Assembly (NCBI RefSeq): GCF_910592395.1 | Contig: NC_088311.1 | Coordinates: 8,682,501-8,746,500, forward strand | Length of the DNA: 64,000 nt | Origin: Lineus longissimus | Lineage: Eukaryota > Nemertea > Pilidiophora > Heteronemertea > Lineidae | Direction: 5' to 3' | In this document: positions 10,069-58,500 of the stretch, in pieces | Layout of the letters: the number at the start of each line of letters is the position of its first letter | Position numbering within the stretch: position 1 is the first letter of the stretch | Notes under the pieces: model-generated | The model's input: the letters and a program-made list of their open reading frames with translations, nothing else | Told to the model about the DNA's origin: nothing | The model's database searches: none | Made by a program: the position numbers and the translations under genes

Positions 10069-21472
<11,404 letters not shown>

Positions 21473-33500: not shown

Positions 33501-36500
33501 TTTTGAAGTGTGATAACAAGTTTGATGTCTATATCGATATGAATTCAAGGCTGACAAATGTTGGGTTAACCAGCTTCATATGGAATGGAATGATGATTTC
33601 TTTCCTGTCGCCCCTCCCCCCCCCCCCCACCACCAACATACTAGGCTGAAGTTGCATAGACATGCATGCTTAGCGATTACAGCTAATGATAATATCCAGA
33701 AACATCCCGAAAGTACCGTAGCATAGCGTACTCTGAGTAGGTATATATGCAATAATCTTCACTTGACAGAGTATTCAAATATTACTAATGTACATCCTCC
33801 TCTACCCTTTTAACACACTTTAATTGACTTGCAGACGTGCACCTATTCCATGTATACTGAACATTTTACCCCTTCCTTACTATTTTCCGTAATGGTAATA
33901 TCTTCTTAAGTATGGTAATAAGTTTGATGTCTATGTCGATATGAATTCAATGCTGACAAATGTTCGGTTAACCAGCTTCATATGCAATGGAATGATGATT
34001 TCTTTCACCCCCCCCCCCCCCCCACACACACAAACATACCAGGCTGAAGTTGCATAGACATGCATATTTAGCCACTACAGCTAATGATAATACCCAGAAA
34101 CATCCGAAGTACCGTGGCATAGCAAACTCAGTAGCTTCTTTTCTTCTACCGTGAAATGACCACCAGACTTGATCCGACTTCTGGAATTGCATTGTAACTG
34201 TGTATACTTTCAGTCAACTACCAACAGTTCGCTGCGTCAAATGGACTCACATATCGTCATGGCAGCTGCCGAGGAAATGACATCCAATTTCTCTCTAATA
34301 CAAACCTTGCAAGCTGCAATACGCAGTGTAAGGCCAGGTCCAGTTGCATCTGTTTCCTCTGGAATGAAGCCAATCACTGCTACTTGAAAAGCAAAACCTG
34401 TTCAAATGTCGGCACATCGAACCCGAGGAATCATTTCTTTGATAAAGGCACCGGTAAGATATTTTCATTTAATTAAACTACCAAGTGTTCATGCACACAT
34501 CAGTGCCCGTTTAACACAACTTCGATATACTTGTCCACCATAGAACAGGAGCCGTGCACTCTGTTTGTGTCGGCACAGCTTGTCACATTCTAACACATCT
34601 TTGACTATTCTTGACTATTTTGCGTCATGGTAATATCTTCTGAAGTGTGATAATAAGTTTGATGTCTATGTCGATATGAATTCAATGCTGCCAAATGTTA
34701 GGTTAACCAGCTTCATATGTAATGGAATGATGATCCCCCTCCCCCTCCCCCTCCCCCACAACACAATAGGCTGAAGTTGCATAGACATGCACGATTAGCC
34801 ACTACAGCTAATGATGATATCCAGAAACATCCAAAGTACCGTGGCATGGCACACTCAGTAGCTTCTTTTCTTCTACCGTGAAATGACCACCAGACTTGAT
34901 CCGACTTCTGGAATTGCATTGTAACTGTGTATACTTTCAGTCAACTACCAACAGTTCGCTGCGTCAAATAGACTCACATATCGTCATGGCAGCTGCCGAG
35001 GAAATGACATCCAATTTCTCTCTAATACAAACCTTGCAAACTGCAATACGCAGTGTAAGGCCAGGTCCAGTTGCATCTGTTTCCTCTGGAATGAAGCCAA
35101 TCATTGCTACTTGAAAAGCAAAACCTGTTCAAATGTCGGCACATCGAACCCGAGGAATCATTTCTTTGATAAAATCGCCGGTAAGATATTTTCATTTAAT
35201 TAAACTACCAAGTGTTCATTCATAAATCACATACTTGTCATATCATACTTGTCCACGATAGAACAGAAGCCGTGCACCCTGTTTATGTCGCCACAGGACA
35301 ACGTTTTTCGAAAAGTGGATGACCGTCCGAACCAATTGATATCATTTGTAATTGTGAACAAGACACATCGATATTTTCTCTTTACATAATGAACCCCAAG
35401 GTTGCGAACCTAAAACAATATATTACTGTTAATGGTCGAATGCACCTCGAATGCACCTCGAATACCACAACAGCGACTGAACTTGTGGAATATGCACAAT
35501 TTACTATTAAAAGGTTGTTCAGTGGAAGTACATCTGAAGTATATCATTCTTGTTTATTAGATATCAACGAATGCACTGCAAATACACACAACTGCGACAG
35601 GACGAACGGCATATGCACCAATACACCGGCAGGATCATTCACATGTTCTTGTAAAAGTGGTTTCACTGGAAATGGGAGAACATGCTCTGGTAGGTAGGCC
35701 TACTGTCTCCCAGGCCAGAAGTTTCTGAAGTCTACTAATGTTATAAGGGTAGACATGACCATTTATAAGTTATTAATGTTTTTCTTGTATTTCGTGGTGT
35801 TTGTCTTCAATAAGATAAGAAGAGGTTTACAATTGAACCCAGAACAATGAACGTTTTTCGAAAAGTTTATGACCTTCCGACCCAATCGATATAATTTGTA
35901 AGATGAACAAAAACACCTGGAAGTATATCTGAAGTATATCATTCTTGTTTATCAGATATCAACGAATGCACTCTGAATACACACAACTGCGACAGGACGA
36001 ACGGCAAATGCACCAATACACCGGCAGGATCATTCACATGTTCTTGTAAAAGTGGGTTCACTGGAAACGGGAGAACATGCTCTGGTAGGTAGGCCTACTG
36101 TCTCCCAGGCCAGAAATTTCTGAAGTCGACTAATGGTGTTAGGGTAGACATGAGCATTTATAAGTTATTAATGTTTTTCTTGTATTTCGTGGTGTTTGTC
36201 TTCAATAAGATAAGAAGAGGTTTACAATTGAACACAGAACAATGAACGTTTTTCGAAAAGTTGATGACCTTCCGACCCAATCGATATTATTTGTAATTGT
36301 GAACAAGACACATGGAAGTATATATCATTCTTGTTTATCAGATATCAACGAGTGCACTGCGAATACACACAACTGCGACAGGACGAACGGCATATGTACC
36401 AATACACCGGCAGGATCATTCACATGTTCTTGTAAAAGTGGTTTCACTGGAAACGGGAGAACATGCACTGGTAGGTAGGCCTACTGTCTCCTAGGTCAGA

Positions 36501-39500
36501 AGTTTCTGAAGTCAACTAATGTTATTAGGGTTTACATGAGCATTTAAAAGGTATTAATGCTTTTTTGCATTACGTGCTCTTTGTCTTCAATAAGATAAGA
36601 AGAGGTTTCTAATTGAACACAGAACAATGATCGTTTGTCGAAAAGTTGATGACCTTCCGACCCAATCGATATAATTTGTAAGATGAACAAAAACACCTGG
36701 AAGTATATCTGAAGTATATCATTCTTGTTTATCAGATATCAACGAATGCACTCTGAATACACACAACTGCGACAGGACGAACGGCATATGCACCAATACA
36801 CCGGCAGGATCATTCACATGTTCTTGTAAAAGTGGTTTCACTGGAAACGGGAGAACATGCACTGGTAGGTAGGCCTACTGTCTCCTAAGTCAGAAGTTTC
36901 TGAAGTCTGCTAATGGTATTAGGGTATACATGAGCATTTATAAGGTATTGCTGCTTTTCTTGTATTTCGTGGTGTTTGTCTTCAATAAGATAAGAAAGGG
37001 GTTTACAATTTAACAGAGAACAATGAACGTCTTTTGAAAAGTTGATGACCTTCCGACCCAATCATTTGTAATTGTGATAAGACACATCGATATTTTCGCT
37101 TTACATAATGAACCCCCAGGTTGCATACATAAAAGAATTACCGTTAATGGTCTTTACTTTTAACGCACTTCGAATACCACAACTGCGACTGAACTCGTAG
37201 AATCTTCACAATTTACAGTGAGAAGGTTGTTCAGCGGAAGTATATCTTAAATATATCATTCTCTTTTTGTTAGATATCAACGAATGCACTAAGGATACAC
37301 ACAACTGCGACAGGACGAACGGCATATGCACCAATACACCGGCAGGATCATTCACATGTTCTTGTAAAAGTGGTTTCACTGGAAACGGAAGAACATGTAC
37401 TGGTAAGTAGGCCTACTGTCTCCCAGGTCAGAAGTTTCTGAAGGCTACTAATGGTATTAGGGTATACATGAGCATTTATAAGGTATTAATGCTTTTCTTG
37501 CATTTCGTGGTGTTTATCTTCAATAAGATAAGAAGAGGTTTACAATTTAACACAGAACAATGAACGTCTTTTGAAAAGTCGATGACCTTTCGACCCAATC
37601 ATTTGTAATTGTGAACAAGACACATCGATATTTTCGCTTTATAATTACATAATGAACCCCCAGGTTGCATACATAAAAGAATATATTACCGTTAATGGTC
37701 TTACTTTTAACGCACCTCGAATACCACAACTGCGACTGAACTCGTAGAATCTTCACAATTTACAGTGAGTAGGTTGTTCAGCGGAAGTATATCTTAAATA
37801 TATCATTCTTGTTTATCAGATATCAACGAATGCACTGCGAATACACACAACTGCGACAAGACGAACGGCATATGCACCAATACACCGGCAGGATCATTCA
37901 CATGTTCTTGTAAAAGTGGTTTCACTGGAAATGGGAGAACATGCACTGGTAGGTAGGCCTACTGTCTCCTAGGCCAGAAGTTTCTGAAGTCTACTAATGT
38001 AACTAGGGGATACATGAGCATTTATAAGGCTTTAATGCTTTTTTGCATTACGTGCTGTTTGTCTTCAATAAGATAAGAAGAGGTTTCCAATTGAACACAG
38101 AACAATGATCGTTTGTCGAAAAGTTGATGACCTTCCGACCCAATCGATATTATTTATAATATGAACAAAAACACCTGGAAGTATATCTGAAGTATATCAT
38201 TCTTGTTAATATCAGATATCAACGAATGCGCTCTGAATACACACAACTGCGACAAGACGAACGGCATATGCACCAATACACCGGCAGGATCATTCACATG
38301 TTCTTGTAAAAGTGGTTTCACTGGAAACGGGAGAACATGCACTGGTAGGTAGGCCTACTGTCTCCTAGGCCAGAAGTTTCTGAAGTCAACTTATTTTATT
38401 AGGGTTTACATGAGCATTTATAAGGTATTAGTGCTTTTTTGCATTACGTGCTCTTTGTCTTCAATAAGATAAGAAGAGGTTTCTAATTGAACACTGAACA
38501 ATGATCGTTTGTCGAAAAGTTGATGACCTTCCGACCCAATCGATATAATTTGTAAGATGAACAAAAACACCTGGAAGTATATCTGAAGTATATCATTCTT
38601 GTTTATCAGATATCAACGAATGCACTCTGAATACACACAACTGCGACAGGACGAACGGCATATGCACCAATACACCGGCAGGATCATTCACATGTTCTTG
38701 TAAAAGTGGTTTCACTGGAAATGGGAGAACATGCACTGGTAGGTAGGCCTACTGTCTCCTAGGTCAGAAGTTTCTGAAGTCTACTAATGGTATTAGGGTA
38801 TGAGCATTTATAAGGTATTACTGCTTTTCTTGCATTTCGTGGTGTTTGTCTTCAATAAGATAAGAAGAGGTTTACAATTTAACACAGAACAATGAACGTC
38901 TTTTGAAAAGTTGATGACCTTTCGACCCAATCATTTGTAATTGTGAACAAGACACATTGATATTTTCGCTTTACATAATGAACCCCCAGGTTGCATACAA
39001 GAAAGAATATATTACCGTTAATGGTCTTACTTTTAACGCACCTCGAATACCACAACTGCGACTGAACTCGTAGAATCTTCACAATTTACAGTGAGAAGGT
39101 TGTTCAGCGGAAGTATATCTTAAATATATATCATTCTTGTTTATCAGATATCAACGAATGCACTGCGAATACACACAACTGCGACAAGACGAACGGCATA
39201 TGCACCAATACACCGGCAGGATCATTCACATGTTCTTGTAAAAGTGGTTTCACTGGAAACGGAAGAACATGCACTGGTAGGTAGGCCTACTGTCTCCTAG
39301 GTCAGAAGTTTCTGAAGTCAACTAATGTTATTAGGGTATACATGAGCATTTATAAGGTATTAATGCTTTTTTGCATTACGTGCTGTTTGTTTTCAATAAG
39401 ATAAGAAGAGGTTTCCAATTGAACACAGAACAATGATCGTTTGTCGAAAAGTTGATGACCTTCCGACCCAATCGATATTATTTATAATATGAACAAAAAC

Positions 39501-42500
39501 ACCTGGAAGTATATCTGAAGTATATCATTCTTGTTAATATCAGATATCAACGAATGCGCTCTGAATACACACAACTGCGACAAGACGAACGGCATATGCA
39601 CCAATACACCGGCAGGATCATTCACATGTTCTTGTAAAAGTGGTTTCACTGGAAACGGGAGAACATGCACTGGTAGGTAGGCCTACTCTCTCCTAGGCCA
39701 GAAGTTTTTGAAGTCAACTAATTTTATTAGGGTATACATGAGCATTTATAGGTATTAATGCTTTTTTGCATTACGTGCTCTTTGTCTTCAATAAGATAAG
39801 AAGAGGTTTCCAATTGAACACAGAACAATGATCGTTTGTCGAAAAGTTGATGACCTTCCGACCCAATCGATATAATTTGTAAGAAGAACAAAAACACCTG
39901 GAAGTATATCTGAAGTATATCATTCTTGTTTATCAGATATCAACGAATGCACTCTGAATACACACAACTGCGACAGGACGAACGGCATATGCACCAATAC
40001 ACCGGCAGGATCATTCACATGTTCTTGTAAAAGTGGTTTCACTGGAAACGGGAGAACATGCACTGGTAGGTAGGCCTACTGTCTCCTAGGTCAGAAGTTT
40101 CTGAAGTCTGCTAATGGTATTAGGGTATACATGAGCATTTATAAGGTATTAATGCTTTTCTTGCATTTCGTGGTGTTTGTCTTCAATAAGATAAGAAGAG
40201 GTTTACAATTTAACACAGAACAATGAACGTCTTTTGAAAAGTTGATGACCTTTCGACCCAATCATTTGTAATTGTGAACAAGACACATCGATATTTTCGC
40301 TTTACATAATGAACCCCCAGGTTGCATACATAAAAGAATATATTACCGTTAATGGTCTTTACTTTTAACGCACCTCGAATACCACAACTGCGACTGAACT
40401 GGTAGAATCTTCACAATTTACAGTGAGAAGGTTGTTCAGCGGAAGTATATCTTAAATATATCATTCTTGTTTATCAGATATCAACGAATGCACTGCGAAT
40501 ACACACAACTGCGACAGGACGAACGGCATATGCACCAATACACCGGAAGGATCATTCACATGTTCTTGTAAAAGTGGTTTCACTGGAAATGGGAGAACAT
40601 GCACTGGTAGGTAGGCCTACTGTCTCCCAGGTCAGAAGTTTCTGAAGTCAACTAATGTTATTAGGGGATACATGAGCATTTATAAGGTGTTAATGCTTTT
40701 TTTGCATTTCGTGGTGTTTGTCTTCAATAAGATAAGAAGAGGTTTACAACTGAACTGAGAACGATGATCGTTTTTCGAAAAGTTGATGACCTTCCGACCC
40801 AATGTAATTGTGAAAAAGACATATCGATATTTTTGCTTTACATAATGAACCCCTAGGTTGAAAACCAAAACAATATATTACTGTTAATGGTCTTTACTTC
40901 TAACGCACTTCGAATACCACAACTGCGACTGAACTCGTAGAATCTGCACAATTTACAGTGAGAAAGTTGTTCAGTGGAAGTATATCTGAAGTATATCATT
41001 CTCTTTTATCAGATGTCAACGAATGCACTGCGAATACACACAACTGCGACAGGACGAACGGCAAATGTACCAATACACCGGCAGGATCATTCACATGTTC
41101 TTGTAAAAGTGGTTTCACTGGAAACGGGAGAACATGCACAGGTAAGTTATAATGGGGAACGTGTGTGAAGCGGTTGGTTGAAAAGGAAAGGATGGGTGGG
41201 TGGGTGTCACATAAATAAATTTGTTAGTATACCGTTGTTTTTTACCTGGAGCTGAAAATCTGGCTTCACTGGATACGGGAAGATCAAGAACTTTGAGCAC
41301 ACAGTGACTATTTCGAGCTGATGATCACCTTCTCCATCTCACTTGATAAATGTGAATTTCTTTTCTTTCAAACTATTGATTGGTATGATTGAGAATTGGT
41401 ATAACTAATTTGAGGCAATGACACAATAAATCAACAATTTGACAACTAGATTTATTGTCACCACTGAGTAACGGAAAAGAAAGCACAGCGTCATTGCGAG
41501 GTGTTTCTGCCATTCTTTCAATCACTGAAATTGCTGCTGATGGTCGTGTTTTCATCCACAGCACCAAAGACAACACCAAAACCACCTCAAGGTAAGGAAG
41601 CTTTTTTAAGACCGTGTTTAAGTTGGTTCTTATGCCGAGTATGTACCACAGTGCATGACATATGTGCTATGAAAACCTCTCACTTGCTGCTCAGCCATAA
41701 GTATAAACTTAAGGTGACCTGTTATCTTCGACCTTTTTATAGCGCAGGTGGGCTAATTTCTTACTATGAAATAGATAGAGCCACTTTATGATTATCATAC
41801 ATCTATAGTCGTGTGGTCAAGCAGTGATTGCGACTACATGTACGTAATATGTATGAACTAGTATATGTTAAATGCACTGATGAGGCAAGTTATATAAAAT
41901 GATAATGCAGTCCCGTAAGAAAGTATTTTTACTGCAGCACTAATTTTTTGCTATTGCATTTCCCTATTGTAGACCTTTTGTTGAATGTGACCAAATCAGT
42001 TTGTAATATATTTCACAAAAGGTCAACAATAGGGAAATGAACAACAAGTCCGTATCAACCTGTCAAGTTCAGATGCGACAAGCGCCTAGTTTTGGTAGAG
42101 CGAGTCACATATTGTTACCTTTTTTTAGCTAGAACAACTAATTAATGGTTAGTTTCACTACCTTTTAAACTGATTTCACAGTTGGTGCAATGGAAAATAC
42201 CAGATTAGTTGTTTTTTACGATTAAATTTTAAGAGCGCTTGTTGACACTTACCTTGTCTTCGAAACGAAGTATATAACTAAAAAGCGCAATATTGACCTA
42301 TATATTTCAGCATGCACTTATACCTATGAGAATGCAGATTGTGAAGGACACAATATAAAACCGGGGATGGAGCGGAACATGGATCAGTGCCTAGACGCCT
42401 GTACCAAAAGGTCCGACTGCAAGTCAGTCCAGCATCGCAAAGTTAATAACGTAGATACTTGCTGGTTGAAAAACCATGTTTGTACTCCGACTCAACTTAC

Positions 42501-45500
42501 ACATAAAAAGAAAAATGGATTTGCTCAGTACACAAGTAAGTACTGATCTCTTTTAAAATACCGATATTTTCTTCAGTCACAATGAGTACGTGTGACAAGG
42601 TCATTCCTGAAACTGATTGAGGGTTTAGTGACAAATGTAACCGGAATAATGTACCCTTTCTTTGGTTGCTAAAACATATGCTAAATATTCCTTATTTTTT
42701 TCCAGAGAAATCGTGCGACGTTGGTAAGTTTATGAAGTTGTCTTACATATTATTTGCTGTTTGTCACATGTCGTCCGTCTTCATGAAATACGTTCTTAGT
42801 GACTACTAATATTCCTTTACTTAACATGCTAACCACTCTCTTTCTTTTAGTTTCTACTAGTTTTAAATGCATTTCTCCATTTTTCATTATCTCATTCTGA
42901 TTTTTAAAAGGTATCTAGTAAGTTACGTCAAATCATCATTCTTTGACGCAATTGTTCACCTCATTTACACATTTCCTGTACATTAAATACCGGTGCTGTG
43001 GCTTAATAGTTGTCACAAATTCAAGGTTGGTGTACTTCGAAAGGCCAAAATACTTGTGAAAATAGATTTCAGGAACAGCGTTTTATATATTATGACAATA
43101 ATAATTCGATTGAAGAAGTTGAGTGATATAGGAAAAGAGATATGCTGATAAAATTAGGATAATTTATCAGTTGATGTACTGGATATACTTTATTAAGATT
43201 TATAACATCCCGGGTCTTCCTTGTTGTAGCAAGCCAGGATCCGATTCTCGTATTTTACCAAAATAATGATTTTATTCCACATTTCATTTTTTAATCAACA
43301 GAGAATGATGTTATTAGTAAGTATATGTTCGTTAACCTTCAATGGAAATATATATTATGGCCCGAACTGTGGTTGTGCAGTTTGATAAGAAGAGGTTTGC
43401 AACTAAGAACTTTGGTTCAAAATCAAATCCTCTTCGAACTAGATTTACATTCACGTGACAGATGACAAACGTCACTTTAGAAACTTTCAGATGATTTCAG
43501 ATGATTTCAATTACGTGTATTGTACAAACTGATTCTCTCAAACCATTATTTCTCATTCCCGTATAAATGTAGGAGGCCATTCATTGAAAATTTGCAGTTA
43601 TTTTTTCAAATATCTAAATGGCATTCGGAAGTATTTAATTTGTCATTCTGTATGGTTTGATGACATCTTTTTTTATGACAACTTTATTGCAGCGTTCCTC
43701 AAGATTTTCCCTCCTATTTTCATTCAAGTTAGAAAAAAGCGAAAGAAAAACTTCGAGAAACGTTGAGGCAAAGTTACAAAAAAAAGAAATCATAAGACCA
43801 CACAAAAAGACATTAAGCTCTTTTTATGTTTATGCTTTCTCCGAATTTCGAATGTGTTGATACGATATTAAACAATGTCGTCGTATTTCAGGTTGTGCCT
43901 CTGACACCAAGTTGGAACCAAACAGTCAGACATGCATTCCAAGTAAGTGCTCGCCCTATTTTGCTCTGATATAGTTAGTCAGAAGGAGTTTCAGTGTCTT
44001 GTATCAAAGTTCTTTCGATGTTACCCAACCTACACCAGGTCATTGTTTTATCGTCAAATGATGTGGTCCTCGAAAGTATGATAGAAGAAATGTATTCATA
44101 TTCCAGCAATCTTGTGTGTGTAGGTGTTAGTCCTGTCTGCTCAACTCAGTAATTGCAATAGCTCCGCTATGATTGGCATGACCTGACACCTGTTCGACTT
44201 GCAAACTTCTTGAAATGTCATCTCGTAACTATTATGAGTTCCTCCAAGCTCATATTTGTTGTGTTTGTGGAGAAGAAGGCCTAAATTCGAGCTGTTCGTG
44301 TGTTTTTTTCTTTGTTCCAGTTGTTGTTTTTAATCATTATCATCAGATGGAACAATATTCCTATCCTATAATCTTACTTCGTTGTTAACCCTGAAAGTTG
44401 TCCCTATAATTTCCAGGATGTCCCGATGTTCAGACCAAATGGAGCGGCACGATATGTGAACCTCGTAAGTTGATTATTAACTGCCAGTGCCTTGACCCAT
44501 ACATGATTGTCAATATTGTCTGAAGACTCACTTTAGCTTATACCTTTAAGTGTACGGAACTCCTGAGTTGTGTTACTAATGCTTTTCATCTGTAGTTGCC
44601 AGAAATTGACACCCAGTTCATTAACCGTTAATCATAGATTAGTATTTCATAGCGCTTTATTTCCAATAGAGTTGCTCACGTGCGTTAGAGTGCAGTTTGA
44701 AATCGGACAGAGTTTCTTCTGTTTATCAGAAATAAAGTATTTAATTTGTAGGAAATCGTTTTCTTTGCATTTTATCTCCATTTCGTATATAATACAGCCG
44801 AGTTCATTCCACAGAGCATGGTTGTTATATATCAAATGTTTGCCTTTTAGGATGTGTTAATCCAGACACACAATGGTCCACGACCAAAGCAGAATGCATT
44901 CTCCGTAAGTATCGTCTGGGACAAATGAATCAAATCTGTCTTTGTTATTGTTCTATTTCTATGGTTGCAAACGACGGAGTGAAATGAAAACGATTTGTAC
45001 ATACACACAACGGAATATATAGGTCGAGTTGTTTGACATAACCAGTGCGCTTTGCTAAGTAAAACACATTTAAAGAATATATTAACCTATCTTTCACAGT
45101 TGGACAGAAATGCAATAATAATTTTCACCATCACGCTTACCATTTGCAGGTTGCCCAGAAGAAAAGACCAAGTGGAACCAAGAGAAGAAGACATGTGTTG
45201 ACCGTATGTATCTATTTTCCATCTAACATACACTGTAGAAAAGGTAATCGAACTCAATAATCTTTTTTTTAATGAGGTATCTTCGAATAATATGCCATGG
45301 AAAATATGGAGTGTCTGCACAATCAGTCGAACTTTAAATGGGCACCAATATCTGTCATATCGCCGTACATGCATACATGACCACTGTGAGCAATGGTGCA
45401 CTTAGCTACTACAAGGAAGAGCGAGTCCATTGGCTATTTTCTTTGTCTTTCAGGGTGGTCAATTCCACTCGGCCCGGAAAATGTCTTCGACAATTAGGTT

Positions 45501-48500
45501 TTTGTTTATCTCCGCCCTATTGGTGTGTGCACTTGGATCATCCTTCGAGTAATACAACAAGTGTATCATAGGCCACAGTGATGTATCCTGAGATCATTTT
45601 TACTCCATAAAAAAGTGATGACGACCGAGGATGATCCAGTCAGTGGTGGTCCCATTTCTGTATAATCATATCACATCGCATTGTCTATTTCTTTGTATTT
45701 ATAGGTTGTGCTAGTCACAAGCAATGGATTGTGTCGTCCAAGAAGTGTAAAGATCGTAAGTTAGATTAATTTAACTTCTCCCTTGTTTATAACAATAAAC
45801 TGAAATATCATACAGAAACACCACCTTAGTGTATCCACGTTAATTTATAGTTTTGCCCAGACAATAAACTTTTTTATTTGCTCTATTAGATATTGAAAGG
45901 CGGAAGTAATTATATATCAACCGAATCTGCTAGCCAAAGAGCAAGACGTCTGCCCAAGAAAACAAAGCATGCGACCAGTATTCGGTCCTCTTTCATGATT
46001 TTTCAAAGTTCGTGTTACTTTAATTTTAGGTTGTTCTGCTGAAAACCAATGGGTCGATGCCAAGAAGGAATGCGTTGCAAGTAGGTATACGACTTGGTTA
46101 AATGTTTGAATAAAACAATTCTGCAGATAGATGTAGGAGATCTTTTCTTAACTAGTATAAGTATGTGACATTTTCTATATTTTTATAGGAATGTTTCCCG
46201 AAGTGCTCCCTTCGCTTTATCAAGCTGAAATCCCTTGGCTCTTACCATGCATTCCAGCTTGATAACTTGATAACTTGATAATGCGAAGGGAGCACTTGGG
46301 GAAACGTTGTTGTAAAGCACCAGAAACAACTCTTAAATCTTAAATCTTAGAAAAAAAGACGACTTGTATTAGATGTATTTAAATGAGTTGATACAATTTA
46401 GAGTTTCTAATCATGTGCAGAAGAATAGCAAAGGGTTTTTGTTTTTTTTTACTTTTTTCTTTCATATCTAGTTGAAACGAAAGGCAGACTCAAAAAGACA
46501 ATTTGCAACAAAATATGCTTACTCTTATGATAATCACGCAGCTACGCTTCGTGGAATGCTGTCCATGCGTTTTTATACAAATTCTCTCTCAATTTTATCT
46601 CACGACATGATTACACTTATTCTCGAATGTTTTTCTGACCCCCAGGATGTCCAGCTGAGAAGAAATGGGAGACGAACAAGTGTGTTGACCGTAAGTAATC
46701 TTTTTTTACGACATCGACATTACAAGCTTTTGAAAATATCTTATTCTTGTTTGGAAGGATTCATTTTTAAGATGGTCTCAGTAGTCTGTGCATGCAGCCG
46801 CGTAAATTTCTCTGAAGATCCATTAATGAACACACCCAGCCCTTTCACTTCTCTACTTTAATTATGTTCAATCAAGATACTCTTCTAAAAAAGAAGTTTT
46901 GAGTTTTGAAAAATCAAGTTCCTTTGGCCGAATAAGGCATAATGTTTGCTGGCATCTGGAACATTACAAGTCACGTTGGAATCCAGTCAATTAATTGCAT
47001 AAGTGGCCATATCAAAACTAATCATGTACTATGATCTGTTACTTTAAGGAGTTTTTACTCCATACCTCTTACTCATTCGAATTTCCTTCCATCAGCTAAC
47101 CTCGTTAATATTTCCTTTATAATAAGTTTATCCAAAGGAAAAAATAATCGGTGTACTACCCTGGCAGCCATCACCAACGTAATGGTTAAAGTTCTAACAA
47201 TTTCTTTTCAAAAATGAAATGATAGTGTTGGCCTATGGTACATAAAGTCGTAGTCATATCCGAAACATTCGTTTTATTTTACATACCAGGATGCACAGAC
47301 GCAGCCAAGCAGTGGTCTGTAGTCGAGACGAAATGTGTTACACGTAAGTCTAGCATTCTTATAGATAGATAATAGAATACTGTTTGATAAGAAAGAATCA
47401 CGTCGCATCAATGTGTATGGGTCGTTGCATACGATGTACACATGTAAGTGGTAAATGCATTATAATTGTTTACTCAATACACCACCTTGGTATTAAAATG
47501 GAGAATTTTCAAGTGTGATATCATACTCTCTTTTACAGGATGCCCTGATGTCAACACAAAGTGGGACAAAACACAGGGCAAATGCATCGATCGTAAGTAG
47601 AAGTTCTCTATCCCATTTGTACTACATATCAACGTACGTTTTATTGCTGATACTTCTTTGCTTAGGTCATCAATGTTACTACTTTTATAGGGTCGTGGAA
47701 AATCATTCCACTTGGATATTTTGATGGTGTTATTTTAGTAAACAGTGCCGTCAATGGATATCTATCCTTTGACACTTGTTGGACTTATTTGATACATTTT
47801 CAGGTTGTGAAAAACACCGGGAGTGGGATAACGAGGCAAAGAAATGTACAGACCGTAAGTTATATTGACAGTGATTTTTATTGCTGTTTTTATACAATGT
47901 AATGCAATGCAATGCAATTGTATTAATTATGGCTTTGGCTCATTATTAGTAATTCCATAAAAAAACAAATTTCACTTTTTAATTTCTTATTTATTCATTT
48001 GATTATTGTTCATCATAATTTCAATCACCGCCTCCCTTCTCTCCAGGTTGTGCTGATTCTGACAAATGGAATGACGCAACGAAAAAGTGTGCAGCAAGTA
48101 AGTAAGACTAATATATACCAGTACATTTGTTTCGGTTCGGATTAAGATGACATCCTAACTAGACTTCCAGATTCACGTAAGGGATACAACCAGCAGATTG
48201 TGCATTCTTCTCAAAATAAGGAGGCAAATTGTTTTATTTAAGATGAACTTTCACAACTAGTTGTATATAATGGCGTACTTAATGGCGTAACGCGAATAAC
48301 TTATCTTCAGGGTGTCCAGCAGCTGATAAAGAATGGAAGGGGAATAAGTGTGTCGACCGTGAGTATCATCATCAAGTATAATTTATACTATAAATTAGAT
48401 AATCAATACTGTATCATTCATGTAGTTATCAACACACTAAACTTTGAAATACCGGAATGGTTCATCATCCCCAGAGGTCATGTCATACCGATTTATAGTG

Positions 48501-51500
48501 GCGACCTTAAGACTTTAAGGTGACTGCACACTGACCCCCCCCCCCCCCCGAGTTCTCTGGAGCACCGCCGGAAGAATTTCTCATAATGCATCATCCAATG
48601 CTTTATAGTACCAGAGTTATTCAAATAAATTTATTTGAAAGACTCTGATGGTGCTATCGCTAGAAAGCTATTTAGATAAGCAGTGAGAGAAAAACTGCTG
48701 GGATAAGTCATAGTGCTGCGTCAGCGATTCCCTGTCTATAAGATTGACGTGTTTTGCCTGGCTGGTTATACTCCAAGATAATTCATGAAAACTAGTCACG
48801 ATAACCCAATGGCATAGGAAGCCCCTGATCATGATGCTGGTTAGTATTCAGGTGGAACTATCTACATTATAACAAACACAATACATTTAGCTGTACATTT
48901 GCATATTCTAGGTTGCACTGACCAAGCAACAAAATGGTCCAGTGAGAAGAAGGAATGCGTTCCACGTAAGTCCAACCAACAACCTAACTTGGCTTCCCCT
49001 GTGGAGTTATTTGCGTGCAGTATCAGGCGTAGATTTACCTCGGCCAGTTATGCATGAAGTATGTTAGTTCAGGTTGGGACTCGATGGTCTGAAGTTTGAC
49101 GAAGTTGTGCTTTTACGAGCGAGCCGCAGTTTTACAATTTCATGATGTCATTATGTATACCAATAGAGGCTCGCACATGCTAATTAACTGGCTCTGGATG
49201 TTTTTGTTTAGGATCTTGACCAAAGTTACATCATGCCACGGAGTGATGACCAAGTGACAGTAACATTAGTTTTTCAAGATTGCTTCCTATGATTGATGCC
49301 GAGTTTGCTTTTTAGGTTGTACTGATGCCAAGACGACGTGGGACCAAAAACAAACCAAATGCGTGGACCGTAAGTTGCTCTACACTTCCATCATAAATAA
49401 AATTTGTATCCACAGAAAATGTCAGATTCATATAAGAACAGTAGTCACATAGGTCACGAAAAATAGCTGCATTGTAACTGGCAAAAAATCTAAAAAATTG
49501 CGTAGGCTACAAATGAGTGGCTTCATTATTCGAAGTAAGAAGTGATGTCAACAAAAATGTTGTAAATTTCTTGATTAGCAATATTTTTTAAAACAAGTAA
49601 ACAAGTAAATTTAGTAAGCAAGTTGTGAGTCTTCTGTGTCTTTTGCCTACAAGTCTTCAATTGGAGCTGGAATCGCTGCTTTCAATCACGGACACACGTA
49701 GTCATTTTTGTTCTCCTCAGGTTGTGGAAGTGCTGAACGATGGGACGACGAAACAAAGCATTGCGTTAGCCGTAAGTAACAGTCCTAGAGTTACACAGTG
49801 AACAAAATTATGGAATTTGTTAGCGTTTATGTCAAACAGTGGCCTTAGCTTGCCGAGGCACATAGCGTACAATGCTGTTCGACAATTCCTGAATCTGTAG
49901 TATTGTGATATACTTCATCACTTTGGATTTACAAGACTGTGAAATAGTCACACCTTGGGACTCTCCAATCATTTGAATTTTGCATTCTATTCACACATTT
50001 CCTAGAAGAAAATCTTATTTTCACTTTGCATTACCAAATTATAAACATTTTACATTTTTGCATTCAATGTTATAACAGGTTGTGATAGTGCAGCAGATAA
50101 GTGGGATGAAGCAACAAAACAATGTGTACCAAGTAAGTACATGTACTTATGTATTCATAACATTCTTACGCATTATTTCAGCAAGAAATTGTGTTTCTAT
50201 TATTACATTTTATGAAATGTGCAATCACCGTTCATTTACTTGTTTCATTGATTAAGTGACCGATGTGAAGAATGTTACCACTGCAACCAGGTGGTGTGGG
50301 GCGGCAACATCACGCCAGTTTTCGTTGCTGTAAAAACCAATTGGACTCCCTGCAACCAGGTGGTGTGGGGCGGCAACGTCACGCCAGTTTCCGTTGCTGT
50401 AAAAACCAATTGGACTCCCTGCAACCAGGTGGTGTGGGCTGGCAACGTCACGCCAGTTTTCGTTGTGGTAAAAACAAATTGGACTCCCTGCCCAACAGAT
50501 AATTATTCCCTGTACGTTTTTACATAAAATATTTTGGTATCGGTGGATTTAATCCTCTTGTCTGTGGTAGTATCATGAAAATTTCCAACCTTGAATGGGA
50601 AGAAAAGGATAAGCAATCTATAAAACTGCAGCAGAACTGTGGCTAGACCACCTCAAATTTGCGGTTTTGTAATAAAATGCCAACATTCGAGCATTGTAGT
50701 ACATGAACCTGGCCACGAGAAAAACGTGAGGTTGCGTGCGACATATCCGAGCCTGCACTGAAACAATATCGTCGCAAATGCTTTTTCAAAATCGAAGCTC
50801 TTCTTGGGTTTACTTCACATGATAGTTCGGTGTCACACCGTTCTCTTTACAAAATTGCCGAGTGGTTACTTCTGAAGGCGCTGTAGATTAAGCAGACATA
50901 TTTTGATTGTGAGAATAATAAGTGCACCATAATTCCTAATGCATTGTTTCCCGCTTTAGGATGTCCAGCCAGCCAGGAGTGGAAAACAGATACGTGCGTT
51001 GACCGTAAGTTTCCATCATAAAGTTCATTATAATTCGGAGAGACTTTCTGTATATCTTAAAAATCAGGTTTTGTATTCGAGAACTTTTCAGGTTGTAATC
51101 AATGTATTGTATTTATTTTGTCCTTACAGGATGTGGAACGAACGAAAAATGGCATGAACCATCAAAGAAATGTTACCGAAAAGGTAATACCTACCGAAAT
51201 ATCTATACATGTATATACATTTAAAACCGCGTAGATGTTGTTATTGACCACAAGCCAAATAAACAGTTGTGCATATTTCACATTGAAATTATAGTAAAAC
51301 AATTATTTTTGTATTAGAATTCATTAGAAGTAACTCACGCATCACTTTCACACACCAGGCATGAAAAGATAGAAAAAATATTTTGAAGGCGTATATTTTT
51401 GTTTCAACGCAGAGGTTTTTTTGGAGAGTAATCCATATAAGCTTACACGTATGAAAGCCGTGAGTATGCAGCATTAAATTTCGGTAAGGCCTGCTTGAAT

Positions 51501-53844
51501 TTACATTTACACAACCCTTTTATTTGCTTCAGGCCCCTATCCAAAGACGACGGGAGGAAATGCTGAAGGAGCTCGTTGTGCCATACCATTCTTGTATGGT
51601 GGATACTGGCAGGAGGACTGCGTCCAGGGAGACGCGAAGAAATGGTGTGGTACTAAAGAGACTTACACTGCGGAGGAAGGGCTAAAGTGGGGTTATTGTG
51701 CAGGTAATTTTTTTATTATCCAACAATTCTCTAAAATGAAAAAGACAATTGTTGTGAGGCCAACATTAAACGTTGATCTACATGTGCAGTTCTGGTGCTT
51801 TTGATGGAAGATATTTAACCTTCGATTTTTCACATTTAACTCCAACTTACTTTTTATTTAGGAACTTTGATTAAAATAACACTGTCACTAAATTCCAGTT
51901 ACATGTCGAACGAAGGCAGGTCTGAACAAGAATCCTGGTGAAGCTTGGACAGAGGGCACTGAAAAGCTCTTCTGTAAGACTGATGGAGAACTTGGCAAGA
52001 TCCCATCAGGTAGGTATCATTGTTTCTTTGAACCATGCAGATTGCCAGATTTATAGATCACAATACACAGCCTCAAATAAAACCGTTACTGAAATGTAGG
52101 TCGATATGTGTTCTTCTCGCCGTGTAAATGAAATCAGCTCGACTCGGGTACATTTTGTAAAAGAGTAATCATCAAGCTTTTCCTTGTCGGTCCTTTGTGT
52201 TATAGGAGTACAGTTGAGAATCATCCGACATGCTTGGGTGGGTCTTGGGTTAAATTCGTGTAGTGGACTATGCGTAATTTACAACAGTCTCAAAGCGTTT
52301 TTTCATCTCCAGCCTATTACTGCGACATTAATTTTTCTGTGTAACCCAACGAGTGCACATATACTGCACTGCACATGCGAACTTTGGGAGTACTAACTTG
52401 ATGATTTATTGCCACTCGTTCTATTCGTAAATGCATCAGTTGCACGAAGTTGCTAAGATACATGCAACCATCATAACCGTGTCACTGTGTTATGTATATT
52501 ATATTCATTCAAATGTTCGTATTCTTCAGAGCAAACCACGAAAAGTGGTAAGAAATGCGTGTTTCCCTTCAAGTACGAGGGCAAGTACTATGGCGAATGT
52601 ACAGGCAGCAACCCATGGTGCGCGACCGTGGCAGTTTTGGATGCAACTAGTAGTAATGACTGGGGACGTTGTCTACGTAAGTTGTCACCTGTCCAATACG
52701 ACTTACTGTCATCGTTTCTTCGACACTTCATATAGTATACATTTAATTAAAATAGATGTGTATAATGGCAACTATCCATACTTGGTACTGGTGGTTTGTC
52801 CGGCATTTCCATTTTTATTCTACTGTTAGTTCCGAAGGTAGAACCGTATAGATTATACCAGGAGCGAATACTTTATTGGCTTATGTTGAAAGTTATATCA
52901 CCGTCCCCTCATTCCACTTGACATTAATGACAATATTTACTGTTGTGTACTTCTCCATTCTACTCATCCCATCGATCGTCCTTTTGGATTCTTCTCACTT
53001 CTCACTTTTCACTTCTCTGTCTCCCCCCAGTGTTATCGGAACCAGGGTCCTGTGGATTTTGCGAGTAAATATGGGATACAGGATGCCATTTGGTATGCGT
53101 TGCAATGTGTCGTCAGTCTTTCATACATCTTTGTTAGCCTGCATTCTCAGTGAACACTTCGTTTCTACAAAATGAACAAAAAAATACAATGCACAGATTA
53201 TCTATAATCTTATCTATCACCTACTCTCAAAAGTTTCTTCTGAACACATGAGTTTTCAAGCAATCCTTAACACTGCCAATGCCCTTAACTGTTCTCACCA
53301 AATTTGATTTCTGATTTATAGCAAAAGGTTTCAACATTTCTATTTCAGCTACATGTGAGACACAAGATCATAAGCAAGTGAATGCAGGCGCAACATGGTT
53401 CAATGAAGGAATTGAATATTGTTGTGGATTGGATAAAAAGGCTAGGAAAAGTAAGATATAACCAGATGGACTCCTGAAGATAATACTGATATATTTAGGG
53501 GCCAATGTAGTGCACGAGAGCGTACATTGCATGGCATATTCATAGCTTAAAGCAAGTTTGACCATGTGTAAGTTCGAAATTGGGAATTCAAGACGCCATC
53601 ATTAGAAGTCATCTCGTGTGGTCCCCAAGAAGTCGCGATATAGTCTGCTATTTAACTATCATTAAAACAAGTATATTCAACTTGCCATGGCTGTCTCTTT
53701 TCAGACGTAAAGTCACACACTGGAAACTGTCTCTTCCCGTTCACTTACGCGGACACCAAGTACGAGACGTGTATTGAGGCTGACTCTCCCGGTAAACCGT
53801 GGTGTTACATCGACGAGGCTCAGACTGCGTTTGGATATTGCTAG
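24542..53844 (+). CDS. Secreted mosaic protein: PAN, EGF array, 18 two-Cys modules, FN2; 50 exons
   Basis: Hand-built model of 5,112 nt and about 1,703 aa. Exon 1 (24542-24599) encodes a signal peptide (MQLSLPLVAILVIAALV). Exon 2 (28459-28476) is an 18-nt micro-exon. Then come PAN x2, EGF x4, PAN x2, EGF x13, a linker, one PAN, two micro-exons, 18 two-cysteine modules and five exons of the FN2 region; each block is listed separately. Every internal exon starts and ends in phase 1, so any of them can be skipped without a frameshift. The whole protein should be extracellular and disulfide-rich, likely a matrix, mucus or recognition protein; that role is inference. A strong poly(A) signal follows the stop. 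Uncertainties are the link from exon 1 over a 3.9-kb transposon-bearing intron, and which copies are actually spliced together. I know no named homologue with this layout. Confidence 0.8.
24660..24990 (-). mobile_element. SINE-like element with a tRNA-type B box
   Basis: On the minus strand a tRNA-like head carries cccgggttcgattcccgg, a perfect B box with paired T-stem arms. A GC-balanced body of about 270 bp follows. The A box is poor. An open frame crosses it on the minus strand, but the frame includes the B box and has no domain. I could not define the target duplication or tail. Confidence 0.5.
25546..26904 (-). pseudogene. pogo/Tigger-type DDE transposase with an in-frame stop
   Basis: The frame starts at an ATG at 26904 (MDEPLPKRKRSYSVSEKLRY), a CENP-B/psq-like helix-turn-helix start. 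It continues through a second DNA-binding region (RCLPVVMQDVQEKAVQLFQ). DDE motifs follow: FFNMDQT, ILLVDQFRVH and CTPLAQPLDMAVMRSFK. A single TGA at 26230-26232 breaks the frame about two-fifths from the end. The reading frame is otherwise continuous to the stop at 25546, and an acidic DDDDDD run lies near the C-terminus. This suggests a young element killed by one nonsense change. It lies antisense in the first intron of the mosaic gene. The terminal inverted repeats were not found with certainty. Confidence 0.85.
27012..27221. mobile_element. Small inverted-end element (mariner-type MITE candidate)
   Basis: The left end reads tacgtggtgtcccaactaaa and the reversed right end reads tacggggtgtcccacaaaat, both starting with TA. 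A TA target and a GGTGTCCCA end are common in Tc1/mariner relatives. It is 210 bp long and non-coding. The match is imperfect. The right end could instead belong to the neighbouring transposase element. Confidence 0.4.
28963..29923 (+). CDS. PAN/apple exons A and B of the mosaic gene
   Basis: Two exons of exactly 240 nt (28963-29202 and 29684-29923), phase 1-1 and almost identical. Each encodes an 80-aa cysteine-rich domain: GSCRGNDIQFLSNTNLASC, then QCKARSSC, then HCYLKSKTC. The spacing of central Cys pairs and the CYLKSKTC strand suit the PAN/apple fold, usually a protein or carbohydrate binding domain. The flanking intron DNA is also duplicated, which shows a recent tandem copy at a 721-bp offset. 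Confidence 0.8.
30320..32269 (+). CDS. EGF-like exons 1-4 of the mosaic gene
   Basis: Four exons of exactly 129 nt: 30320-30448, 30870-30998, 31420-31548 and 32141-32269. Each encodes one 43-aa EGF domain with six cysteines: DINEC, HNCDRTNGIC, SFTCSCKSGF and GRTC. The DINEC start is the calcium-binding EGF signature. EGF 1-3 use the donor gtaggt and EGF4 uses gttagt. EGF4 is followed by intron sequence shared only with EGF17, so it marks the end of the first block. Confidence 0.9.
31866..32033. mobile_element. MITE inserted between EGF exons 3 and 4
   Basis: About 168 bp absent from the matching place in sister copies. The left end reads ggtgtggcggggatagtagt and the reversed right end ggtgtgacagcggatatagt. 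The insertion splits the ctcgaat-rich sequence seen intact in other EGF introns. It is non-coding. Confidence 0.6.
32385..32418 (+). pseudogene. Remnant of an EGF exon 3' end
   Basis: The stretch tctggcttcactggagacag resembles the SGFTGN end of the EGF exons but lacks the upstream part. A similar remnant (about 41252-41283) follows EGF17, so it predates the block duplication. Confidence 0.5.
32914..33036 (+). pseudogene. Degenerate EGF exon
   Basis: It starts with an acceptor and a MNEC-like start, and ends with GFTGNGQICT in another frame. A frameshift puts a TAA inside, and the normal donor GT is replaced by tc. It cannot be used as an EGF exon. The two frames cover the EGF cysteine pattern only in part. 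Confidence 0.75.
33440..33735 (+). repeat. Truncated copy of the PAN-exon intron
   Basis: This segment matches the intron just upstream of the PAN exons (atgtctatatcgatatgaat, a poly-C tract, ctaggctgaagttgcataga), but the PAN exon itself is missing. The sequence instead jumps to gtaggtatatatgcaa, which is the start of the intron after micro-exon 2. It marks the junction of the block duplication. Confidence 0.65.
34214..35180 (+). CDS. PAN/apple exons C and D of the mosaic gene
   Basis: Exons 34214-34453 and 34941-35180, each 240 nt and phase 1-1. C matches A and D matches B almost base for base, including the FDKG versus FDKI ends and the flanking introns. The offset from A to C is 5,251 bp and from B to D is 5,257 bp. 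The pair was therefore copied as a unit together with the EGF block. Confidence 0.8.
35561..41141 (+). CDS. EGF-like exons 5-17 of the mosaic gene
   Basis: Thirteen exons of exactly 129 nt start at 35561, 35956, 36342, 36736, 37274, 37820, 38216, 38610, 39148, 39544, 39937, 40478 and 41013. Variation clusters after the first cysteine: CTANT, CTLNT, CALNT or CTKDT. Elsewhere it is limited to R/K, I/K and one P-A-G to P-E-G change in EGF16. EGF17 starts DVNEC. Exons 10-12 and 13-15 form two copies of a 1,328-bp triplet. The introns are almost as alike as the exons, which indicates recent unequal exchange or gene conversion. All keep six cysteines and open frames. Confidence 0.9.
41562..42535 (+). 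CDS. Pro/Thr linker exon and fifth PAN exon
   Basis: Exon 41562-41591 (30 nt) encodes PKTTPKPPQ, a rigid, possibly O-glycosylated spacer. Exon 42311-42535 (225 nt) encodes a PAN/apple domain (CTYTYENADCEGHNI, MDQCLDACTKRSDCKSVQH, CWLKNHVC) that is clearly diverged from PAN A-D. Both exons are phase 1-1. Confidence 0.8.
41957..42039. mobile_element. Short foldback element
   Basis: The left arm catttccctattgtagacct and the reversed right arm catttccctattgttgacct match for about 30 bp with few mismatches. It is intronic and 83 bp long. Confidence 0.6.
42706..43316 (+). CDS. Two micro-exons of the mosaic gene
   Basis: 42706-42723 (18 nt, KKSCDV) and 43302-43316 (15 nt, ENDVI) each have a good acceptor and a gtaagt donor in phase 1-1. 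They link the fifth PAN domain to the mini-module array. Either could be skipped without a frameshift. Their small size makes them less certain than the other exons. Confidence 0.55.
43892..51183 (+). CDS. Array of 18 mini-exons, each a two-cysteine module
   Basis: Exons: 43892-43942, 44417-44464, 44851-44904, 45150-45203, 45705-45755, 46030-46080, 46646-46690, 47290-47343, 47539-47592, 47804-47854, 48047-48097, 48311-48358, 48912-48965, 49316-49369, 49721-49771, 50079-50132, 50960-51004, 51130-51183. Each is 45-54 nt, phase 1-1, with a pyrimidine-rich acceptor and usually a gtaagt donor. Each encodes 15-18 aa of the form R-C-x(5-6)-[K/E]-W-x(3-6)-K-x-C-V-[D/P], for example CPAEKKWETNKCVD and CTDAKTTWDQKQTKCVD. 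Cysteine spacing is 10-13 residues. Trp is present in all but the first (Leu). Unlike the EGF exons, neither the introns nor the codons are near-identical, so this array is old and maintained. One internal disulfide per module is plausible. I do not recognise the module. Confidence 0.85.
46190..46308. mobile_element. Foldback element between modules 6 and 7
   Basis: The arms (aatgtttcccgaagtgctcc and, reversed, aacgtttccccaagtgctcc) pair for about 35 bp and continue into cttcgc and tatcaag. The right arm holds three tandem cttgataa units. Intronic and non-coding. Confidence 0.7.
50281..50489 (+). repeat. 69-bp minisatellite, three copies
   Basis: Units begin ctgcaaccaggtggtgtggg at 50281, 50350 and 50419, with few differences. 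The period is divisible by three, so two frames stay open through it. It lies in the intron between modules 16 and 17. No splice signals place it in the mRNA. Confidence 0.8.
51533..53844 (+). CDS. C-terminal FN2 region of the mosaic gene (5 exons)
   Basis: FN2 exons 51533-51703, 52530-52676 and 53705-53844 alternate with short exons 51899-52009 and 53349-53450. FN2 signatures are CAIPFLYGGYWQEDC with KKWC, CVFPFKYEGKYYGEC with NPWC, and CLFPFTYADTKYETC with KPWCY; each has four cysteines. FN2 domains usually bind gelatin/collagen or sugar-bearing ligands. The two short exons (TCRTKAGLNKNPGEAWTEG and TCETQDHKQVNAGATWFNEG starts) share a C...NxGxxWxEGxE...C pattern and are related to each other; the second has a double Cys. 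The TAG stop at 53842-53844 follows the last FN2 cysteine directly. Confidence 0.85.
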
Positions 53845-55569: not shown

Positions 55570-58500
55570 ATGATTTGGTTCGTTGTTATGGCTGGCCTGA
55601 TCAGCCGCCTTCAAGCAGGAGAAGGTAAATCTCATAATATATAAAAAATAAGTCTTTAATAGGGCTAGTACAAATACAGTTATTGCTCACACTAGTACAA
55701 GTCTTATGCCAATTTTGAGGGATACGCGAAAAGGACGTCAGCCTAGTTAGCCTAAGTGTCCTGGTGCTACAATGAATGCCATTATAAGTGTTTTAGGTAA
55801 AAGCTGTGAGATTTGTTTCACCCTGTCGATTGATGGTAAAGATCATAAAGAAGCCAACACAGAAAATCAAACGCGGCGACATGGACCCTTATGGTTACTG
55901 AGGTTTGATCCCGGGATTTAATGCAGTTAAACGCCGTATTTTAAAATGCAACATCGATACTATTTCAATATCTTTTGTAGTATTGGCGTCTGCTTACTTT
56001 CAGTTTTGTCATTCGCTAACTTTGACGGAGAAGACCAGGGCGACCTGTAAGTCGTATTCAGATTCTGTTACTTCCTTGATCAGCATGTCTCCAGCATATT
56101 CTTTTTTGTGCGCATTCTTTTTGCGAAAGATATTTCCATAGTTGTCAAACAAGTTGTTTTTTTTCTTAATCTCATATCTAATTTTAATTACACGTACATG
56201 ATTAAACTGCCAATTTGTCTTTCGATTCGCCCATGAATTTGACAACGCTTTCCTTTCACATGGAAACCAAATCATTCGCATTTAAGTTATACGGGAGTCG
56301 ATAGACCTATCCATGTCACCGTGGACAACCAGAGTTTGTAGAATTATGTTTTCCCATGCAGGGGTATAGAACGGACCCCGTCCTGCTGCTATGTCTCATG
56401 ATGTCACTAAACAAGCGATTTGCACATTTCATGTGCACATCACTGTTGCTTAGAGAGCAGCCAAAACGGTATTCCGCCCAGAAAGTTGCAAATAAGTAAT
56501 TTTTGCTCTCAGTTCATTGCTTAATCGGTAATTGACCCTTCAAAATGGTTACAAAGATAAACCAGCTCCAGCTATCGAGAGATAAGCTTAAGACCTTCCT
56601 TCCAAAAGGACCTGACTCTGACCCCTTTATATGTGGCCTTTGTCAAGCAATCAACGTTCTATACTCAACCCGTTAAAACGGAGAACATCATGCATGGAGA
56701 AAGTCGGAGCGGTGAACGAACAGAGGGATGGAGCAAGCTGTTATAACAAGTCGAAGGCTGCCTGAGCTCGGCCATCTTTGAACCGACCGGAGATCGCTGG
56801 GTCCGTCTTATTAACAGTTTGGGTCTTAACTATTGTGCCAAAAGGACAGCTATCGAGCAGATCTTTCTTTGATTGCAGACTACATTGCGGTGCTGAATAC
56901 AAGCCTGACGGGACATTTGGCACCGCAGCCTACTTCAACGGCGACACTGGTTACGCCACCATCCCTAAGCCGGCGATCACCAAGACCTCATTCACCATCA
57001 CAATGTTCATCAAGATGAAGACATTTGGAGAGAGGCAGACGCTGATCGCTGATTGGATGAAACCGTGGCAAATGTTGCTCCAAATTGAATCTAATAATGA
57101 ATTGCGGATGGTTTTGAGACGTGATATCTGCAGCACTGGTTCTCTTGATGGACAAAACCTTGTCAACCTTCATGGAGGTAATGTCATGGGGAAGCTCAAG
57201 AACAGATGGCAACTAGTTGAATTCACTTGGGATCGGGAGGCGAGGACAGGTACTCTCTACCTTAACGGTGAGAAAGTCGCTGAACAGACAGATACAGCGA
57301 ACGCCACTGCCGATGTCCAAGATAACTATCACGAGACATGGGATGTTGGGCTGAAGCGAGACCAATGTGATGGCATGGTCTTCCATGGGTGGATGGCAAG
57401 AGTGGTCGTCTCTGAGGGGGTACAGAGAATGGAGATATTCGACAATAACCCTTCAAAGAGTAAGTAGGGATGTGCATATTGTACGACGTTGAGTTTACAC
57501 AAAAATTGCCAGAAATAGGCCATTCAAGTTAGGGTCTATCTAACCGTTTTATGTAAGACCGGTAAATGATACATACGTCCGTCCCAGCAGTTTGCTGATA
57601 ATCATTGTCCCAATATGTATTCAATCATTTATTTCATTTTTTTTTTTTAAATTTTGGGAATATAAATTTTAGACTGAAGTTGTTTTTACCAGTATGCATT
57701 ATTCGTGTTACAGCAATGTTATCAAAAACAGGGAATTGCTGCTGGTGGACAGTGCTATGCTTTCTAATCCAAGGTACCAATGCTGCGGCTGATGCACTAT
57801 AAGAACATCCTCCTGTCCTACTTAAGTAGGGACTGATGGGAGATCGGCGATGATCAGTGGAGACTCAGTCCGAGTTTAGTTTTGTATGCCCTTTGATTTT
57901 TATCATCGTGTCTCACATCTTCCTAGGTATCAACCTTGCTCTGGGAAGACCTGCTTACCAGATCGATAGCTATTCAAGCTATGAAGCGTCTGGACCGCAG
58001 AAAGCCGTGGATGGTAATCATGCCAACAAGTGGAGAGCGAAGAGCTGTGCAGGCACCAGATATTCCGAGATGGACGCCCAAAGAAACCAGCCAGTCAAGC
58101 AAACCAACTGGTTGGCAGTGGAACTAGACCGCGCCTACCCGATTACTCTGGTCAGGCTACAGAACAGGGGCGACTGTTGCGGTATGTCATGTCGTGGTTT
58201 TGTATTCTTTTTGGTGTGACGGAATTATAAGTACTCTCTTTTAACAAATATATAAATGTAAAATCTCAGCTTGTATAAGTGTAAGCCGTACAATTCTTCA
58301 TACACTCGTGGTAGCCACTCCTTGGGGAGGTGCAGGCTGCAGTATACGTTTTATTCCTGGCGTTGTCGGGGGAGCAATTGAAATAAGGCTAAGTTGCCGA
58401 TTTCGGCCTAAACAGCATGCATAGATGGTGCTTCCACTTTAAATCTGTCAGAATGACATAACATTTGAATGTATGCAAATGAAATTGATATCATGATTTA

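Follow-up and report, generated by a model that had tools for sequence, protein, structure and literature searches.

The window analysed here, a 64-kb stretch of the Lineus longissimus genome (contig C4, 8682501-8746500), carries on its + strand an array of 18 mini-exons (43892-51183) that probably encode tandem one-hairpin modules resembling the A1 modules of TNF receptors, most likely with one disulfide each, which together would form a stalk. Each module (C-x(5-6)-W-x(4 or 6)-C-V-x-R, about 15-18 residues) would be a small extracellular unit, predicted from models of relatives to be a two-stranded beta-hairpin with the Trp on strand 1 and the second Cys-Val on strand 2. The hairpin would most likely be closed by its own disulfide, by analogy with the TNF-receptor A1 module, which has a single disulfide and an aromatic residue. 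Whether the modules constitute an undescribed family is judged to be evenly balanced; such a family would be defined by a minimal Cys-Trp-Cys one-disulfide hairpin per mini-exon, by five-exon-block duplication and by variable-length stalks in a multigene family, and its occurrence also in two predicted proteins (P0001 and P0002) would make it ancient or repeatedly invented. If the module folds alone, it would be a very small natural exon-encoded folding unit.

Anatomy of the module array

The original prediction had listed 18 exons of 45-54 nt in this array and all of them were found, with phase 1 at both ends in 18 of 18. The borders, as read from the sequence, are as follows.

43892..43942, +, module exon 1, A-ending, without Trp
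44417..44464, +, module exon 2, short-loop, opens block 1
44851..44904, +, module exon 3
45150..45203, +, module exon 4
45705..45755, +, module exon 5
46030..46080, +, module exon 6, A-ending
46646..46690, +, module exon 7, short-loop, opens block 2
47290..47343, +, module exon 8
47539..47592, +, module exon 9
47804..47854, +, module exon 10
48047..48097, +, module exon 11, A-ending
48311..48358, +, module exon 12, short-loop, opens block 3
48912..48965, +, module exon 13
49316..49369, +, module exon 14
49721..49771, +, module exon 15
50079..50132, +, module exon 16, A-ending
50960..51004, +, module exon 17, short-loop, would open a further block
51130..51183, +, module exon 18, distinct last module, donor GTAATA

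The Cys-Cys gap is 10-13 residues in all 18 modules, as had been claimed, and the array is built solely of such C-x(10-13)-C units. Trp, described as near-invariant, is present in 17 of the 18 modules, exon 1 having Leu instead. The restriction of the original pattern to Lys or Glu before the Trp was too narrow, the residue preceding Trp (or Leu) being Lys in nine modules, Gln in four, Glu in three, Arg in one and Thr in one. The introns between the mini-exons measure 125-827 nt instead of the approximately 200-950 nt given originally. Synonymous change is common, 344 of 805 same-residue codon pairs differing among the window modules.

Exon borders coincide with module borders and both introns are in phase 1 throughout the window array (18 of 18), so that the module is encoded strictly one per exon, as originally proposed, and in this respect resembles the class 1-1 exon-shuffled modules of metazoan mosaic proteins, which likewise have symmetrical phase-1 exons. 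With phase 1-1 at every exon, the frame is kept when a whole module is gained, lost or skipped; PMC8001218 describes symmetrical phase-1 exons of extracellular modules as suited to shuffling and exon skipping. In the presumably spliced mini-exons the donor is GTAAGT in 14 of 18 and the acceptor ends in CAG or TAG in 18 of 18. The split codons at the junctions encode Arg in 17 of 17, and at each of these junctions three residues separate one module from the first Cys of the next (C-x3-C); with this fixed linker an elongated stalk would be expected. The split Arg codons were also considered as proof of splicing, exons ending in A always being followed by GA or GG (P 0.029), but this was dropped because such exons recur every fifth exon and shared ancestry accounts for the association.

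A filter for mini-exons with Trp returned 16 on the + strand and one on the - strand of the window, compared with a mean of 0.3 and a maximum of 3 in 60 first-order Markov simulations of it. A profile constructed from the 18 modules scores these same modules at 18.3-28.3 bits, by construction, and the rest of the window at 9.2 bits or less.

Two repeats lie in the introns of the array. A 69-bp minisatellite of about three copies (50281-50491, +) is located between module exons 16 and 17, and a 43-nt inverted repeat (86% complementary, 49-nt spacer; 46182-46316), possibly a small mobile element, follows module exon 6.

Five-exon period and sister arrays

A five-exon period and a set of sister arrays are additions to the original prediction. 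The modules with a short Trp-Cys loop are 2, 7, 12 and 17 and the exons ending in A (split codon AGR, not CGN) are 1, 6, 11 and 16; exon length, loop class, split-codon type and identity all peak at lag 5. Nucleotide identity averages 0.587 at lag 5 versus 0.45-0.48 at lags 1-4 and 6-9; none of 20 000 permutations reached the lag-5 value, and permutation also gave p 0.0001 for lag-5 amino-acid identity and p 0.00015 for the exon-length difference. After removal of gapped columns lag 5 still peaks (nucleotide, 0 of 20 000 permutations; amino acid, p 0.004). Pairs of the same class modulo 5 average 0.563 versus 0.505 for other pairs (two of 5000 permutations), but the three lag-15 pairs average only 0.414. 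The best partner lies within the same class for 15 of the 18 modules. Of the five rotations, in-register pairing comes out best in each of the three block pairs (0.565, 0.573 and 0.655) if gaps count as mismatches; if gaps are ignored, blocks 1 and 2 agree better when shifted one step off register (0.587 versus 0.572). The period in these sequences is most simply read as growth of the array through the copying of five-exon blocks, with module 18 standing apart as the last one.

The genome (391 118 348 bases, 30 contigs) was scanned with a DNA pattern taken from the window exons (two Cys, Trp and splice sites with GTAAGT), the same pattern read backward serving as control. This gave 74 matches versus one in the control; together with the Markov simulations, the control rules out a chance origin of the array. 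Window exons account for 14 of the 74 matches (14 of the 18 in the array), the others being distributed over contigs C4 (eight more), C8 (two), C9 (five), C10 (16), C12 (two), C15 (two) and C17 (25). Twenty regions around matches were analysed; they include one of the two sites on C8, a minor part of C17 and all but three of the clusters on C10. A general exon scan of these regions, which requires phase 1-1 and two Cys, so that neither these properties nor one module per exon is tested by the sister exons, located arrays in nine clusters. It gave no array in the C8 stretch, and a 39-nt match on the opposite strand of the C9 stretch was dropped from the set. Including the 18 of the window, 120 exons encoding 97 distinct modules were obtained, with Trp in 82 of the 97. 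Exon length is 45, 48, 51 or 54 nt in 120 of 120, although the filter allowed 39-63 nt. The arrays are located on contigs C4, C9, C10, C12, C15 and C17; occurrence at multiple loci is a further property of a class 1-1 module.

A module-by-module comparison with the window covered six arrays (C4a, C4b, C10a, C10b, C10c and C12). In C10b the order of the nine modules matches window classes 0, 1, 2, 3, 4, 0, 1, 2 followed by module 18. The final seven modules of both C4b and C12 map to 2, 3, 4, 0, 1, 2 and 18, the final six of C4a to 2, 3, 4, 0, 1 and 2, the final five of C10a to 4, 0, 1, 2 and 18, and the final four of C10c to 1, 2, 3 and 4; the early modules of C4a, C4b and C10a depart from the window class order. 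Module 18 is the best partner of the last module in C4b, C12, C10a and C10b, and the unusual last donor GTAATA is common to the window, C10a and C10b. The junction residues, all Arg in the window, are mixed in the other arrays, and no five-exon cycle in exon lengths was detected in the C9 array. Three FN2 motifs lie downstream of C4a, C4b, C10a, C10b and C12, as in the window, and one doubtful motif downstream of C10c; none were seen at C9, C15 and C17, where the C9 and C17 arrays reach the ends of the examined stretches.

The arrays would provide a natural series of stalk lengths, and the family permits a direct test of the exon against the fold and the duplication unit (one hairpin per exon; growth apparently by five). 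A three-module set (51, 45 and 51 nt) recurs in near-identical copies every 5-6 kb or so (L104-L107, contigs C15 and C17), the pattern of its third exon matching 25 times on C17, which suggests a large tandem gene family.

Constraint, relatives and alternative readings

Comparison of window with sister modules gave nonsynonymous/synonymous divergences (dN/dS) of 0.19/0.88, 0.31/0.93, 0.32/2.04 and 0.23/3.3, modules of unequal length (four in all) being skipped in the sister comparisons. C4a versus C4b gave 0.17/1.82 and window block 2 versus block 3 gave 0.32/1.33, the other two block pairs being saturated in dS. C10a and C10b differ by one nonsynonymous change across five modules. Window introns have no similarity to one another at E 0.05; under relaxed scoring the best pair is intron 6 versus intron 11 (67% over 51 nt, E 0.009). 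Neither were they similar to sister-array introns at E 0.001 (introns longer than 1,500 nt excluded). In the 30 nt flanking the exons, identity ranges from 0.27 to 0.34 over lags 1-8, and on the downstream side it is highest at lag 5 (0.321). These intron and flank values rule out a recent satellite-like expansion of the module array, which is in this respect unlike the nearby EGF exons, whose introns resemble one another. Intron divergence had been put forward as an argument for purifying selection, of which by itself it is no proof.

A search of approximately 5.8 billion predicted proteins with the array, by a method that detects only relatives of similar length sharing exact words, returned only P0001 (E 1.4e-15) and P0002 (E 7.2e-4); the same two were returned with P0002 as the query, and eight window modules as the query gave no match. 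P0001, which looks protist-like, consists of an EGF-like part, seven modules and then a predicted helix. The module profile scores 84.5 bits on its module part and 30.3 bits on P0002, in each case above 300 of 300 shuffles with Cys fixed. The hairpin repeat of the original prediction is supported by AlphaFold models of these relatives, in which a beta-hairpin is predicted in six of the seven modules of P0001 (five of them at a block-mean predicted local distance difference test, pLDDT, of 69-87) and in all four complete modules of P0002 (pLDDT 70-85). Foldseek gave nothing at E 0.001 and a sequence search of the PDB gave one chance match only (E 1.8). A strict DNA pattern with one spacing only matched 50 prokaryote and seven viral loci, in the frames of which no array was seen; an archaeal frame (L013) has two loose matches, and single weak profile matches of at most 19.6 bits occur in loci picked for carrying the strict pattern. 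Phage tblastn and a comparison of P0001 with viral contigs gave no match, and searches of the open-licence PMC literature brought up no title or abstract on such a module. The Cys-Trp-Cys motif is common to otherwise different proteins, of which it can be asked whether the hairpin was inherited or reinvented.

Several observations count against a stalk of conserved one-hairpin modules of its own family. The first P0001 module has no hairpin in the model, and the TNF-receptor rows fall partly over low-confidence residues. In the recent pair C4b/C12, 14 changes are nonsynonymous and three synonymous (dN/dS 1.0), and introns are as similar (96.0%) as exons (96.1%). The purifying selection claimed originally is accordingly visible among old paralogous modules, where dN is well below dS, but not in this pair; constraint is visible over long times and, over short times with few changes, is not. 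Lastly, the Pfam family Furin-like (PF00757) matches the window array at 32.3 bits (cut-off 26.8, E 1.1e-7). A known-family match, the result that the original prediction had named as counting against it, has thus occurred formally, yet membership fails other tests.

On this match rests the proposal that the array is a diverged Furin-like cysteine-rich member (EGFR, insulin-receptor type) reduced to one-disulfide C1 units, which we regard as improbable. Furin-like also passes the cut-off in C4b (27.5 bits), hence in two of the four arrays tested, and is absent from the five Cys-fixed shuffles of the array examined (of ten made); six column-permuted arrays (of eight made) and one reversed array gave two matches to it, of 10.0 and 13.0 bits. 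The score therefore exceeds the effect of Cys spacing and repetition alone. The array also shares with the Furin-like region (EGFR domains II and IV) a chain of small disulfide modules and the C-x3-C linker, and residues 271-305 of EGFR chain 1yy9 read C-x11-C-x3-C-x14-C, with the same three-residue linker. Unlike that region, the window has C-x(10-13)-C units only. The match is moreover partial, covering positions 73-139 of 147 in the window array and 74-138 in C4b and not most of the domain, and there is no match in C10b, C9, P0001 or P0002. Recognition is not reciprocal: the module profile scores -6.7 bits on the EGFR C1 stretch, a value equalled or exceeded by 275 of 289 scored shuffles, and a profile built on nine module pairs did not pick up any receptor among PDB sequences. 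The array is classed here as similar in design to receptor C1 and TNFR A1 modules and not as a member. No TNF-receptor family occurs among the Pfam matches and no TNF-receptor chain was found by phmmer or the pair profile; NCBIfam gave nothing for the array. The claim of an undescribed family is supported in that neither Pfam nor NCBIfam has a family of the module's own, and is qualified by the Furin-like match. The TNFR1 A1 module is placed at residues 15-29 (PMC3412742) and, like the module described here, is an element of about 15 residues in a chain of small modules; 4-1BB has A1 and B2 modules (PMC6224509), and the cysteine-rich subdomains of EGFR have been described as resembling laminin and the TNF receptor (PMC5492017).

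Alternatively, cysteines could pair across neighbouring modules in a continuous ladder, the exon then not being the folding unit. The invariant C-x3-C junction (17 of 17 in the window) is compatible with this arrangement, and the five-module period could indicate a folding unit larger than one exon; the models, however, place the hairpin within single modules, and the number of modules varies among arrays, some being sets of three, as fits autonomous modules, so that a ladder is considered unlikely, although less so than Furin-like membership. Hardly credible is a Cys- and Lys-rich metal-binding or storage segment of the vanabin type: Pfam Vanabin-2 matches the window array at 12.6 bits and C4b at 17.4 bits, both below the cut-off of 25, and four of six column-permuted arrays reach 12.5-19.6 bits, so that the match reflects Cys spacing and composition. 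TIL (PF01826), which resembles the array in its short Cys-rich segments and weak profile match, scores 20.2 bits, below its cut-off of 24.5; TIL has five disulfides in one domain, unlike the two-Cys modules of the window.

Gene context and neighbourhood

The + strand carries a series of candidate phase 1-1 exons for, in order, at least 17 calcium-binding EGF domains, a PAN-like domain, the modules of the 18 mini-exons, three FN2 domains, a laminin-G-3 domain and F5/8 type C domains.

30322..41137, +, span with 17 calcium-binding EGF exons (motif; Pfam EGF_CA on one copy)
42311..42535, +, PAN-like exon directly upstream of the array, phase 1-1, predicted borders (PAN_1 20.5 bits, cut-off 21.4)
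51533..51703, +, first FN2 exon downstream of the array, phase 1-1, predicted borders (fn2 37.3 bits)
52530..52676, +, second FN2 exon, predicted borders (fn2 35.1 bits)
53656..53841, +, open frame with third FN2 domain (fn2 34.7 bits)
56818..57459, +, Laminin_G_3 exon, likely of the same gene, predicted borders (43.7 bits)
57927..58181, +, F5/8 type C exon, likely of the same gene, predicted borders (29.7 bits)

Strand, order and phase suggest that the chain from EGF to F5/8 type C is one gene; the predicted neighbouring exons are likewise of phase 1-1, the sole class scanned for. Its product would be a large secreted or surface mosaic protein, in which the array may act as an elongated stalk separating a PAN/EGF half from an FN2/laminin-G/F5-8C half. 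The mini-exons (45-54 nt, one module each, five-exon period) differ from the adjoining EGF, FN2 and PAN exons of 129-225 nt.

The 17 EGF exons (30322-41137, +) are identical in at least 93% of nucleotides (median 97%). Their downstream intron stretches match over 100 nt in 106 of 136 pairs (median 91%), and much of the region is a 395-bp tandem unit; they are a recent expansion or homogenisation adjoining an old module array. Two candidate small Cys-containing exons lie among the FN2 domains (51899-52009 and 53322-53450, +), neither of them matching Pfam at E 0.01. Reading frames for a Tc5-type DNA-binding domain and a DDE_1 transposase (25546-26982, -) lie upstream of the EGF exons, as do, in several pieces, tandem arrays with a unit of approximately 301-305 bp (13085-18204). 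The opposite strand (-) also has an RNA cap guanine-N2 methyltransferase open frame (10620-11036) and a long BTB-BACK-Kelch open frame (2057-3823).

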